A DNA stretch of 64,000 nt. It comes from Haloquadratum walsbyi J07HQW2. GTDB lineage: Archaea; Halobacteriota; Halobacteria; Halobacteriales; Haloferacaceae. The notes under the pieces are model-generated. The model searched no databases. It saw only the letters and a list, made by a program, of their open reading frames with translations, and was not told where the DNA came from. Shown piece by piece: positions 9,484-63,358 of this stretch (its first letter is position 1; each line of letters starts with the position of its first letter). The position numbers were made by a program, and so were the translations under genes. The stretch covers positions 2,530,129 to 2,594,128 of the forward strand of contig NZ_KE356561.1 of assembly GCF_000415985.1 (NCBI RefSeq), written 5' to 3'.

Positions 9484-9633
9484 TTATGCAGCTCTTCGTT
9501 CTTTTGATTTCGGACGGAGGTTACTGTATCCGCATTTCCGACATTCACTTGCGCGCTGTGGATTACGCGCATTACAGCGCATACAAATTTGCTTTTCGAG
9601 CGTTCGTTTTATTGCAGCTTCATTCCTTGCCAT
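9484..9633 (-). CDS. rpl40e: 50S ribosomal protein L40e
   Basis: A 49-residue gene, easily overlooked because of its size. It starts [20 protein letters not shown] and continues [20 protein letters not shown], ending with a basic KSKERRAA tail. The CxxC...CxxC zinc-ribbon ligands are all present (CMRC and CRKC). This matches archaeal L40e over its whole length. It stands alone between the copy A remnant and the thioredoxin gene. The longer overlapping frame in this stretch (9267-9572, another frame of the same strand) is spurious. Confidence 0.95.
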
Positions 9634-9746
9634 ATTGATTTTATTTTATACGTGTGTAAAACAGTTGCGAGGCGCTGACACGGGCTTTTCTGATCACCGA
9701 AAATGAAAATTGACACAGAAGCTAGAATGTAAAAAACCGACTACTC

Positions 9747-12596: not shown

Positions 12597-14301
12597 TATA
12601 GAATACAAGGAGAAAACCCGCGTCTTCAGGCGCCGGCTGAATCCGACCACTCTACTCTGACACACCCGACTCTCAGTCTCAGTAGCAGGCTTGGATATTC
12701 TATCACTCTCACTCTCGGTCCCAATCACACACGGTTAGCTATGCTACAACTCTAACACGTTATAGAGCGTTCCATGATGCACATCCACCGCACCCATCAA
12801 GCGACAATCCTCAGCCACGGTCACGTAGAAGAGTTGCTTGACTGGCATGGGTGGTCAGCCAGCAAGAGCAAACTCCGGACCGTTCTCAGACGAGACTATA
12901 CTCCGTCTGAAAGCCCGTGAGACGTCGTCTGACGTGGTGATGTCGCTAACTACTATTCCCGCAAAGTATGGATGACACGGGTGAAATACCCAATCACGGA
13001 GAACTGAAAACTAAGTTGAAGACTCATCAAACACACAAGGCAACCGACTGCACAGTCAGTCCAGTCAGCGCGTTCTGGAGGAACTCGCTGAAGTCTTCAA
13101 CTCGTTGTATGGTTCCAACGACCAGCGAGACAATCCACTCAGCTACCGCAAGAAAAACTACTCCGACCACCAGGACAGGGTCGTCGGGTTCACGAAGAAC
13201 ACCCACGGAGCACCGTGACGCGGAAGCAGAATGGCGTCCGCCACGATAAAAAAACCAATCGGGTTCGCCTCTCACGAGGTCGCAGTCACAAGGAGTCCCC
13301 CCGAGCGAGAGAGTACGTTCTCGTTGAGTACGAAACCACGCCCGGCGTCACCATCGAAAATTTCGAACAGGTTCGCGCCGTCTACGACACCTCCAACTCA
13401 AAACGGCAGTGGGAGCTCCACTTCGTTTGTAAAGACGACATTGAGACTCCTGACGCTCCTGGCACCGAGACGACAGGTATCGTATCGACCCCGGTATCTG
13501 TCACTTCGCGGCAGTTTTGTACAGTACCGAGGATGCCAACTCGACCTCTATCCCGGCAACCAGCTGACACAAGACGAGCACTGCTACTACTTCCCATCAG
13601 AAATCGCTATCTGTGACGACAGCAGTAGCGAAGAAGCTACTATCCTTCACAACAAGTGGTCGGAGCGCCGCAGTCATTTCTTCCACAGTCTCGCGACACA
13701 CATCGTTGAGACGTGTATCGAGCGGGGTGTTGGTCGCATTCACATCGGTGAGTTGGAGGGTGAGGGTGTCCGTGAGGACGAGAACGGCACAACGGTGAGT
13801 CAAAGAATTAGGACACACACGGCAATCTTGACCTACACGGACACGAGTGGGCGTTCGACCGCTTCACCTCGATTCTCGGATACAACATAAGGCGAAAGTC
13901 GAAGATATTCAGCTCGGAGAAGTGTCCGAGCGCAACACAAGCAAGACATGACGTGTTGCGTGCGTGGGAGAGAAGACGAAAGTCAACGTATTGAACGCGG
14001 TCTGTATGTCTGCGAGGAGTGTGATGCGGCGTTCAACGCTGACGTGAACGTGAAGGTGAATAGGGCGGAGAACATCCGCCTCGACATCACCGAGCAAAAT
14101 AACTCCGAGTCTGTCCCCGATTCGGGTGGAGAGAGGAGTCCCGGCTCGGCTGGTTGGCACAGCCAGGAGTCTACTTGTACGAGTTGTCCAGGAGATTCCA
14201 ACTGCAGGATCAAGTGGTAGACTGCAAATCGGAATCTCCCGATCCAGCGGGGCGCAGCGGTGCCGTGTGATTCCGGCGCCTGCAGGTGCGAGAGGATGTC
14301 A
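12597..14301 (+). pseudogene. Decayed IS1341-type TnpB element (copy B)
   Basis: The left end is TATAGAATACAAGGAGAA plus hairpin plus GAATCCGAC (12597-12645). The right end is GATTCC plus hairpin plus GAGGATGTCA (14269-14301). Between them TnpB can be followed only by jumping frames: TPGVTIENFEQVRAVYD near 13340, CHFAAVLYSTEDAN near 13500, KWSERRSHFFHSLATHIVET near 13660, and a zinc-ribbon/RuvC tail with ECDAAFNADVN and GAENIR-like residues near 14010-14080. The position of the first RuvC aspartate (normally GVDLGI) reads as TPVS here. Many frameshifts make it non-functional. No TnpA gene is present. The GC is visibly higher than in the flanks. It is closely related to copy C. Confidence 0.85.
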
Positions 14302-30609: not shown

Positions 30610-31005
30610 TCACCGGTCAGTATCATGTATCGAACTATCAACACTACCGAGTACCTCTTCTGCAGTTGCAACAAATCGCGTCCACGTATTTACGCCTGCC
30701 CGAAGTGCAATCAAATCTGCCGCGGCGATCCTCACTGTGACCGTTGTGTCATCTTTTTTAACCCGCGCACGAGAGCGCGTATCATCGATTTCACCAACTT
30801 CTTGATCAACAGCTGAACTCACGATCTGTGCGCGCTGCACGTCAGCGTAACGCCATGTCAGTTCCAGTGTATGACGCTGTTGAGTAACACGGTCATCTGT
30901 TTTGTCTGCTATGAGCGATGACTTAATACTGTTGCATGAATCGGCAGACGTTCCATTATGACCACGACCATCAGCAGCATTACTTTTTATATTATCCTCA
31001 TCCAT
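30610..31005 (-). CDS. pcc1: KEOPS complex subunit Pcc1
   Basis: 131 residues from ATG MDEDNIKSNAADGRGHNGTS. The Pcc1 fold occupies about residues 44-125: HTLELTWRYADVQRAQIVSS, then EIDDTRSRARVKKDDTTVTV, AADLIALRAGVNTWTRFVAT and AEEVLG. Pcc1 dimerises and binds Kae1, organising KEOPS for t6A synthesis; Kae1-Bud32 is at 2740-4341. The roughly 43-residue hydrophilic N-terminal extension is longer than usual, since the family is about 80-90 residues. It lies downstream of rpoP in a known archaeal cluster. Confidence 0.88.
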   Translation of the reverse strand: MDEDNIKSNAADGRGHNGTSADSCNSIKSSLIADKTDDRVTQQRHTLELTWRYADVQRAQIVSSAVDQEVGEIDDTRSRARVKKDDTTVTVRIAAADLIALRAGVNTWTRFVATAEEVLGSVDSSIHDTDR

Positions 31006-31150
31006 TCGGATCAATGCCTACGATTATTAATCAGTCTTAGTGATTCAGTTCACTCTATTATGTCTATTTTTAATCGATAACTAACAGGCGAGGGTCACTC
31101 CCTCAAGTTGACTTAAATCATCTGTTTTTTAATTGAATTACTCTATACGA

Positions 31151-31285
31151 TTACTCGACAGGAACTTCTTTGATCTCTGGTGCACGCTCTTTTAGCAAGA
31201 CACGATGCCCACAGAATGGGCATCGAACACCGCCGTACTCTTCAAGTTCGACATCACGCTTACACCGAGAACATTTATAACTCAT
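31151..31285 (-). CDS. rpoP: DNA-directed RNA polymerase subunit P (Rpo12)
   Basis: A 44-residue zinc-ribbon subunit, below usual gene-calling length. It begins [20 protein letters not shown], continues [19 protein letters not shown] and ends EVPVE. All four cysteines of the ribbon are present. It is the homologue of eukaryotic Rpb12 in the polymerase core assembly platform. It lies 14 bases downstream of rpl37ae and upstream of pcc1. Confidence 0.97.
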
Positions 31286-31299
31286 AATAAATCGGTTAT

Positions 31300-31581
31300 C
31301 TAATTATCCTCTTCATCGCCATCGCCTGAAAGTGCAGCACGGATTGAACGCTGCACCTGCTTGCCACCAGGTGTTTCTGGATTGTACGTTCCACCAGTAA
31401 AGAGTTCACCTGTTTCTTCATTCCGCCAGATTCCTGTCCCAACACGAGTGACATCATCGCCATCAACGCTTGCATTACGCATCTCAGATTCAATCTCTTT
31501 GACTCGACGTCGTGCAACACGTCCATAGCGTGCCCCGAACCGACCAGCACTCCCACTCGTTCGTGCATTGTCTTCAGCCAT
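31300..31581 (-). CDS. rpl37ae: 50S ribosomal protein L37Ae without zinc-ribbon cysteines
   Basis: 93 residues from [43 protein letters not shown] and the C-terminal [16 protein letters not shown] identify L37Ae firmly. The middle, where archaeal L37Ae normally has CxxC...CxxC, reads [20 protein letters not shown] followed by [13 protein letters not shown]. Neither Cys pair remains and the first knuckle is shortened. It is expressed with rpoP, which keeps its zinc ligands. An upstream in-frame start adds 20 unsupported residues. Confidence 0.93.
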
Positions 31582-31647
31582 AGTACCATAATGTACTTCA
31601 GCTGTTAGTATAAAGCCTGCGAGACGCGGTCTGGAACCCATTTCTGT

Positions 31648-32045
31648 GAACTATCCCACACCCTACTCACCTGCTGGCGCAGGTTCCTTGAGGGTGGGGC
31701 TTCCTGTTTCGATGACGCGCTTTTCACTCACAACATCGGAAACACCTGATGAAGTGAACAGAGGGAGTGCAGTCTCCACAGGCGTTACAGATTCGGATTG
31801 TCCCAATCCTAGTCCTAGCGTTTCAAAACCACGAGAAAGTATATTAACTGCAACGTTCGTGTCTCTGTCCGTCTCGAATCCACACGCTGGCATGAGTGTT
31901 CTCGCACCCACAACGGCTTATCAGATGCAACACCACACGAAGCACATTCTGCTATCGTGCCAGCAGGTTCAGGTTCGACTTCGACAAAGTGCGTTCCCTC
32001 ACGCTTGCACTTGTATTCGAGACTCCTTGAGGACGGGGGCTTAGC
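31648..32045 (-). pseudogene. C-terminal remnant of an IS1341-type TnpB with its right end (copy E)
   Basis: Read on the minus strand, 32015-31920 encodes EYKCKREGTHFVEVEPEPAG and TIAECASCGVASDKPLWVRE, the TnpB zinc-finger region. After a frameshift, 31884-31663 continues CGFETDRDTNVAVNILSRGF and ends TGSPTLKEPAPAGE, a typical haloarchaeal TnpB terminus with the last RuvC aspartate (RDTN). The right end with its hairpin lies at about 31648-31690. The N-terminal two-thirds are absent. The stretch from 32046 to the DUF2103 stop holds nothing else. Confidence 0.82.
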
Positions 32046-43122: not shown

Positions 43123-44524
43123 TTATAGAGTACAAGGAGAATGCCCCGGGGCTTGACCCCGGGTTGAATCCGACAACCCATACTGCAAACCATTACATCA
43201 ACATATCTCTGATTAATAGACAGCGATGTAGTAGTCACCGTTACCCTGCATACCCGACACAAGAGCTAGTGGCTGAACTGGACTCTCATATCGACGTTCA
43301 TCGCCAAGCGTACAACTACACCCTGTACGAGTACGACAACGACAACGACAACGACAACGTGGACGCCGCCGACATCGGCTCTACGTACAACCACCACCAC
43401 TCCCGACTTTCCGACTGGAAAGACGGCTATCCCGTTCCTGTTCCTGTCTTCTCAGAGGCAGGGGTCCACTCGAAAGCTCTGAACCGGACCATCACACGGT
43501 TCTACCAGAATCTCACTGGACTCTGACTCTCCGAGCAGAAGCAAACCCGACGCAAGCTCAACTGGAAGTCGAAGTCACTGCGGGAGTTCCAGAGTCTGAC
43601 GTATTCGCAGTCTGGCTTCGAACTCAAACACACAACTCCGAGTGGCCGACACGCGACACTACACTCTGGCTCTCGACAATCGGAGATATCCCGATCCGCC
43701 ACCATCGCGAGATCCCCGACGAAGCAGCTCCCAAGGAACTCACCGTAAAGAAGAAACCGACCGGCGAGTGGTTCGTCTCGCTCGCTCTCGAAACCGACGA
43801 CGCCGACCTGACCGAGGAACCCCACGTCCACGTGGACTTACTGGACACGGGCAATAGCGTCGGTATTGACCTCGGTATCTTGAATTACAGTCACACATCG
43901 GATGGCAAGACCGTGGACTGGCTTGATCTTGAAGACGAGTCCGAACGACTCCAGCACGAGCACCGCAAGCTCTCACGGAAACAGAAGGGTCGAACAACTA
44001 CGAGAAACAACGTCGGGAGGTGGCAACGGTCAAGCGTCACATCAAGCGAAAAGTGTTGGACTACCAACACAAGACTACGACGTGGCTCGTCCGCAAGTCC
44101 GACGCTGTGTTCGTGAAGGGGATGGGATGTTAGAGCAGTCGCATAACGCTCGGAACAAGCAGACTGCGGCATGGCGTCAGTTCAGTTCATCACACTCCTC
44201 GAGTTGAACATAAAGGTGATCTGTACGACTGTCACGTCGTTCAAATTGAACCACGCGGGACAACCAAAGAGTGTGCATCGTGCGGTGTCGAGACGGCGAA
44301 ACCCATCTGGGTCAGGGAACATTCGTGTCCGAGCTGTGGGTTTGAGTGTGATTGTGAGTTGAACGCGGCGATGAATGTCCTACAACGCGGCTTTGTTGAG
44401 TGAGGGCTGGGATGACCCGAAGATACGCCCGTGGAGACTGCGCTCCCTGCGGACACCACTTGTGTGTCCGCAAACGCGTCGTAGAAACAGGAAGCCTCGG
44501 AGTCGGGGCTTGACCCCGAGGCGA
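43123..44524 (+). pseudogene. Decayed IS1341-type TnpB element of a second subfamily (copy D)
   Basis: The left end is TATAGAGTACAAGGAGAA plus a GC hairpin plus GAATCCGAC. The N-terminal HTH region is open (TQELVAELDSHIDVHRQAYN near 43280). GNSVGIDLGILNYSHTSDGK near 43850 carries the first RuvC aspartate. The C-terminal zinc finger and last RuvC part are at 44260-44400 (CASCGVETAKPIWVREHSCP-like, then ECDCELNAAMNVLQRGF). Frameshifts near 43526, 43640 and 44110 break it. A (GACAAC)4 tract lies at 43335-43358. The right-end hairpin (44492-44520) ends five bases before the GGGP synthase stop codon. Confidence 0.85.
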
Positions 44525-62726: not shown

Positions 62727-62954
62727 TTATGAATCTGCGTCAGCGGCGCCATCATCTACACGCGCAATTGCGTTTTCAGCCGAGCGCCGTTCAACGGTCT
62801 CAATCACTTCGCCATTGAATTCGGCGTCACCACCTGTCGGTGTTGCGAGCGTTGTCCCACACACGGCACAGTTGACAACGGTTGATGCCTTTCCAAAGAT
62901 AACTTGCTCATTGTTGCAGTCTGGACACTGCAGTTGATAGAAATTTCCTGCCAT
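62727..62954 (-). CDS. rps27e: 30S ribosomal protein S27e
   Basis: 75 residues. FYQLQCPDCNNEQVIFGKAS then TVVNCAVCGTTLATPTGGDA hold the CxxC...CxxC zinc site. The C-terminal part (EVIETVERRSAENAIARVDD) is acidic. It lies three bases after the L44e stop and is co-transcribed. Confidence 0.96.
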   Translation of the reverse strand: MAGNFYQLQCPDCNNEQVIFGKASTVVNCAVCGTTLATPTGGDAEFNGEVIETVERRSAENAIARVDDGAADADS

Positions 62955-62957
62955 TGC

Positions 62958-63239
62958 TTACTCCTGAAATCGTAGACGACCAGCACGCCATCCTTCTCTC
63001 ATATGCGCTTTTCCACAGTCTGAGCAGATATATTTCAAATGTGTCTTTTTTGTTGGTTTATCGCCACCAGGAACCTTTGAGAACTTTCCGGCATTTCCAA
63101 TTGTTGATTTTCCACGACGCGTCTGTCGTGCATTCCATTTCATACCAGTCGAACGACCTGTTCGAACCTTCTCAACTTCATGTTCATGATGAGTATCACA
63201 ATGTGGACAATATGTGTTGAATCGGCGTGGCATTTCCAT
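62958..63239 (-). CDS. rpl44e: 50S ribosomal protein L44e
   Basis: 93 residues. [20 protein letters not shown] then [20 protein letters not shown] and [20 protein letters not shown]. Both CxxC pairs are present (CPHC and CSDC), and the end [17 protein letters not shown] is typical. It lies near the E-site of the large subunit. It heads the L44e-S27e-aIF2alpha-Nop10-PAC2 operon. It is divergent from the HAH_0734-type gene. Confidence 0.97.
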
Positions 63240-63358
63240 AAGTATCTACCTTATCTTTAGAATGCTATCACCAGTTAAAACCCGTTTGGTTCGCTCTGAG
63301 CCGGTGCGATTGGATTATCTCCGAAGCCGTTAAGCCCTGAGTTTGCTAACGAGAGAAT

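Follow-up and report, generated by a model that had tools for sequence, protein, structure and literature searches.

A cysteine-free ribosomal protein eL43 in Haloquadratum walsbyi belongs to an allele class common in Halobacteria that may have spread by exchange of its ribbon segment

The eL43 (L37Ae) protein of Haloquadratum walsbyi J07HQW2 has lost every ligand of its zinc ribbon, and it belongs to a cysteine-free class that is the majority state among the Halobacteria sampled, in such a way that its condition is ordinary for haloarchaea. The reading that we prefer, with a probability of around 0.78, is that this protein is the sole functional eL43 of the cell, and that the cysteine-free allele class arose once and was spread by recombination events about the size of the ribbon. 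The loss itself is thus true and largely ordinary, and the parts that deserve the attention of specialists are the apparent recurrent swapping of ribbons and a parallel loss of the zinc site in eL24.

Results

The eL43 gene and its surroundings

The gene was analyzed within a stretch of 64,000 nucleotides of the genome, hereafter the window. It occupies positions 31300-31581 (minus strand), with an ATG start codon at 31581 and a stop codon at 31302-31300, and encodes a protein of 93 amino acids with no Cys and no His; the longest frame opens at 31641, but the comparison with relatives favours the ATG at 31581. The original prediction had described the ribbon region as lacking Cys and His, and the sequence that it quoted is present as written. 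The family assignment is supported by the Pfam profile PF01780, which scored 75 bits (cut-off 21.9), with residues 7-83 aligned on positions 3-83 of the 85 in the profile. The only NCBI models matched were the equivalogs TIGR00280 and NF003058, both below their cut-offs (69.9 versus 95.8, and 81.7 versus 87), which are rules for naming and not biological definitions. The C2-C2 zinc ribbon customary in eL43 is missing, and the segment that takes its place (31402-31479, minus strand, residues 35-60) is 78 nt long, versus 90 nt in the cysteine-bearing class. An AlphaFold model of the protein was poor, and we draw no structural claim from it because its mean pLDDT was 48; the top rank in a Foldseek search with this model was the L37Ae of Haloarcula.

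The gene lies in its orthologous genome place, directly before rpoP (31151-31285, minus strand), which keeps both CxxC pairs and is followed in the cluster by the gene for the KEOPS subunit Pcc1 (30610-31014, minus strand). An rpoP-like frame was found downstream of eL43 in all the 115 loci tested, 63 of 63 cysteine-free and 52 of 52 cysteine-bearing. Upstream of eL43, around 80 nt from its start, a frame at 31663-31911 (minus strand) resembles by eye the C terminus of a transposon TnpB/OrfB protein, with a weak match to PF07282 below the cut-off (17.2 versus 26.3 bits). A fragment at 44134-44403 (plus strand) matches the same profile, that of the TnpB-type zinc ribbon, clearly (Cas12f1-like TNB, 56.9 bits), and a similar-looking frame at 13891-14220 (plus strand) had no Pfam match.

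The zinc sites of other proteins encoded in the window were compared. Two CxxC pairs are kept in rpoP and in each of eL40 (9484-9645), eL42 (L44e; 62958-63245) and eS27 (62727-62957), all three on the minus strand, confirming what had been predicted for these four proteins. The CxxC pairs of eL37 are also kept in this genome. For eS31 (S27ae), the PF01599 profile gave no match either in this genome or in the Haloferax volcanii control, so that the model may be too strict or eS31 divergent.

A single eL43 in the genome

A profile search of the genome, which is a single contig of 3.59 Mb with an estimated completeness of 98.8%, returned one eL43 match. The original prediction had proposed as an option that a second, zinc-bearing paralogue existed elsewhere, the copy in the window being then secondary, and had suggested looking for it; at the sensitivity of this search that option is refuted, and we consider it practically discarded.

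The same question was extended to the 391 genomes of Halobacteria, among which none was found with full-length eL43 of both types. Ten genomes with two matches were searched again and showed no second eL43 of the opposite type: the additional matches above the cut-off were short pieces, mostly from the middle of the profile, and that of G223 corresponded to a duplicated contig end. In G119 the second match was of full length (L074, 26.7 bits); it reads CDECGSMMKAEDGLWECGSCG, which by eye resembles the zinc ribbon of a transcription factor S and not an eL43. Plasmid records gave no eL43 match, and two of the 391 genomes, the drafts G331 and G348 (94 and 97% completeness), had none either.

Two discrete classes of eL43

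Among the 389 genomes of Halobacteria with a match, 266 fall by score in the cysteine-free class and 123 in the cysteine-bearing class, with scores of 85.7 bits or less in the first and from 105.9 to 123.6 bits in the second, and no best score in between. The original prediction had presented the protein as exceptional, while stating that it would be unremarkable if most Halobacteria were alike in this respect, and had proposed a comparison across haloarchaea. This comparison showed that the cysteine-free form is the usual one in most Halobacteria, and the exceptional character does not hold because of these 266 genomes and because the feature was already described in 2021 (PMC8305020).

The sequences that were read agree with the classes defined by score. 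All 94 cysteine-bearing loci (62 inside and 32 outside Halobacteria) have two CxxC pairs, and in 84 of them the spacing from IE to F[TA]GG is 33 residues, the other 10, all from outside Halobacteria, not fitting this text pattern. In the cysteine-free class this spacing is 29 residues in 184 of 184 loci (two sets, of 75 and 109), numbers that count loci and not independent genomes because the collections overlap, the named loci being moreover the best 80 of 369 and biased to near relatives (Haloquadratum, Haloferax, Halorubrum, Halogeometricum, Halobellus and others). The classes are thus discrete, with a cysteine-free ribbon four residues shorter, whose signature is close to VDGDxVxRxGTGIWxNEETGE, with deviations in some genomes. 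The identical spacing in all 184 loci argues that the absence of cysteines is due neither to chance nor to sequencing errors.

The distribution by family (codes f1 to f11) is uneven. In f1, the family of the window's genome, a single member (G259) is cysteine-bearing among 133 with a match, and in f4 two are (G239 and G266); families f2, f5, f6, f10 and f11 belong entirely to the high-score, cysteine-bearing class, and f3, f7, f8 and f9 are mixed. Wherever the two align, the eL43 of locus L155 has the same residues as the Haloarcula chain, and from sequence we infer that genus g29 is Haloarcula.

Outside Halobacteria, a sample of the phylum with 196 genomes, 163 of them non-Halobacteria, gave an eL43 match in 156 of these 163 and none in seven. 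Two CxxC pairs were present in the 32 of 32 loci that were read, the others being judged by score alone, and the low scores include those of family f18 (E to 4.1e-28), genus g98 and the truncated protein of G533. In genus g98, three of whose six eL43 were read (L120, L121 and L122), the zinc cysteines are kept and it is the N-terminal motif that is degenerate, with AAKFRASAGL or AARFGARCGL instead of AGRFGxRYG.

Class changes and a probable exchange of the ribbon

The classes were placed on a tree built with a quick method from the Kae1-Bud32 of 123 genomes (78 cysteine-free and 45 cysteine-bearing). At least 13 class changes are needed on this tree, and 8 when branches with support below 95 are collapsed, versus a mean of 22 and a minimum of 17 in 200 shuffles of the labels on the collapsed tree. 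The classes alternate within families and also within three genera, g41, g47 and g65. G259 is placed inside f1, with a group support of 88, a position that suggests a regain of the zinc site in its eL43.

One way to account for these changes is a large number of independent losses of the zinc site, the ribbon converging each time on the same zinc-free solution. The number of switches, at least 8, would agree with it, and the several distinct C- types of bacterial S4 in PMC3087516 indicate that repeated loss may be feasible in principle. Against this, the same shortening by four residues is found in every cysteine-free locus read, the cysteine-free loci printed share closely similar VDGD...NEETGE sequences, and the 389 genomes show no intermediate score, all of which makes convergence improbable.

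The DNA of the gene was then compared by segments between members of opposite classes from the three mixed genera (25 pairs). The ends of the gene were similar, with a mean identity of 0.875 (lowest 0.684) at the N-end and of 0.873 (lowest 0.806) at the C-end, values that come from short segments (57, 78-90 and 72 nt) and that are near the means of 0.88-0.93 found for the ends between members of the same class. In the ten opposite-class pairs listed, the identity of the ribbon was 53-63%, the lowest within the gene, and rpoP and the gene ends matched. The contrast between matching ends and rpoP, on one side, and a differing ribbon of around 80 nt, on the other, suggests that intragenic recombination has replaced one variant by the other.

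These matching ends within genera also bear on the possibility that an ancestral duplication produced a zinc and a zinc-free eL43, one of which was kept in each lineage. Bacterial paralogues of ribosomal proteins may indeed differ in their zinc-binding cysteines, according to PMC3353972, but the two classes share the rpoP-like frame behind them as well as their ends, and the full-length pair was absent from the 391 genomes, in such a way that we regard duplication as disfavoured and very improbable.

When the gene ends were combined with rpoP for 34 chosen rows, the resulting tree rejected a single cysteine-free clade (p-AU 0.011). The eight rows of genus g41 were all together (support 85/86), as were five of the six rows of g47, with both classes among them (support 94/90); g47 and g65 were not single clades, and the cysteine-free G238, of g65, appeared weakly beside the cysteine-free genus g80. 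The position of G238 would also fit the transfer of a longer stretch, up to the whole gene, and the gene order common to both classes would permit replacement across a long homologous stretch. Such a transfer fits badly with the grouping of both classes in g41 and g47 and with the match of the gene ends across classes, so that we hold it as unlikely, though less so than convergence.

Within f9, the ribbon of g78 is only 0.72 and 0.77 identical to two ribbons of g47, versus 0.86 in the flanks, and a ribbon of g47 (f9) is 0.94 identical to one of g41 (f8), versus 0.83 in the flanks. Both classes, however, conserve third codon positions better in the ribbon than in the flanks (0.610 versus 0.499 in the cysteine-free and 0.561 versus 0.495 in the cysteine-bearing), so that highly similar ribbons from different families argue only weakly for a recent transfer. 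For the same reason, and because the highest value of all, 0.95, corresponds to an f1-f4 pair, individual donor assignments are unsafe, and the evidence on donors is weak.

A second zinc site lost, in eL24

The eL24 of the same genome (G000:C1:1369867-1370058, locus L424:3868-4059, minus strand) keeps one of its four zinc cysteines and reads CDFSG...HFKDSKAE. The claim that the loss in eL43 is not part of a general one was therefore right in part: it stands for rpoP, eL40, eL42 and eS27, but not for eL24. The zinc site is likewise missing in the eL24 of PDB entry 9l94 (9l94_M; CDYSG...HFKNSKAE) and of Natrinema thermotolerans (CDYTG...HFVDSKAE), and it is retained in that of Haloarcula (CDYCG...HFCSSKCE). 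In this comparison of four sequences, with N. thermotolerans placed by its group rather than by its own eL43, the site is absent from the 3 of 3 proteins from groups with mostly cysteine-free eL43, and kept in the 1 of 1 from a cysteine-bearing group. A literature search showed nothing on a loss of the zinc site of eL24 among the 15 results listed of 151. In N. thermotolerans (CP031304.1, L425), a replicon of 987 kb that is registered as a plasmid carries eL8 (L7ae), eS28, eL24 and ndk.

Discussion

The protein encoded in the window would be the only eL43 of the cell, functional and a member of the cysteine-free allele class. In the aligned sequences, VDGD stands near where the first CxxC knuckle would be and NEETGE where the second would be, within a ribbon shortened by four residues, and both could plausibly act as tight turns that close the beta ribbon without the metal. 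This small ribbon would then fold on the 23S rRNA in a metal-free form, as the sequence and the presence of the same class in solved ribosomes lead us to think. The proposal of a ribosome that is zinc-independent at the eL43 site thus gains support, as the only eL43 of the genome lacks the ligands and a homologous cysteine-free eL43 (9l94_R) is part of solved entries. The class probably had a single origin in Halobacteria, and its spread, with occasional reversal, may have occurred by homologous recombination over roughly 80-100 nt inside the gene, which would leave its ends and the neighbouring rpoP unchanged.

A more ambitious proposal, for which we see somewhat less than an even chance, is that the zinc and zinc-free ribbons of around 80 nt in this essential ribosomal gene are alleles swapped in both directions by homologous recombination, including a regain of zinc by G259 in f1 and possibly by genus g76 in f4, and that the states of eL43 and eL24 may be coupled in a zinc-sparing 50S subunit. 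If the exchange below the level of the gene is true, a core ribosomal protein has alternated many times between zinc and zinc-free forms without the help of a paralogue, and such alternation would be a natural experiment on the purpose of zinc in eL43. The loss of a second zinc site of the 50S subunit in the same lineages points to zinc economy or to an adaptation of the large subunit to salt.

The cysteine-free eL43 of haloarchaea is a known and documented lineage feature, as the heterogeneity of its zinc-finger motif was described in section 3.8(c) of PMC8305020, with HVO_0654 as example and with yeast work cited for the importance of the motif. According to this paper, the motif is absent in Haloferacales, very rare in Natrialbales and kept in all Halobacteriales. 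HVO_0654 and the eL43 of Haloferacales are the same protein with the same loss as that of the window. Our data differ in that cysteine-free members also appear in f3, f7, f8 and f9 and a cysteine-bearing one (G259) inside f1, although our family codes do not correspond one-to-one with the orders of the paper; what goes beyond it are the discrete, alternating classes with a probable exchange of the ribbon, and the loss in eL24. On this exchange, and on 9l94, no literature was found among the top-ranked results of a search in which most subscription journals and preprints lie outside the coverage.

Regarding structures, a cysteine-free homologue is present as a chain in eight PDB entries (9l94 and others), and 9l94_R, to which its depositors gave the name eL43, can be aligned with residues 1-88 of the protein in the window; by eye, it is close to the eL43 of Haloferax mucosum (L203). 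The L37Ae of Haloarcula marismortui (3cpw_Y and 3cc2_Z) aligns through its ends and core over residues 6-87, whereas its ribbon contains CPNC...CSYC and is four residues longer.

A published precedent is bacterial S4, for which PMC3087516 describes zinc (C+) and non-zinc (C-) forms and their horizontal exchange, and mentions a salt bridge proposed as substitute of the zinc finger in one C- type. As is proposed here for eL43, zinc and zinc-free forms of one ribosomal protein are shared horizontally. In contrast, both forms of S4 coexist in 26 of 660 genomes according to the same paper, whereas the genome of the window, with its single eL43, carries no such pair, no genome was seen with both forms of eL43, and the exchange of eL43 appears to be confined to its ribbon.
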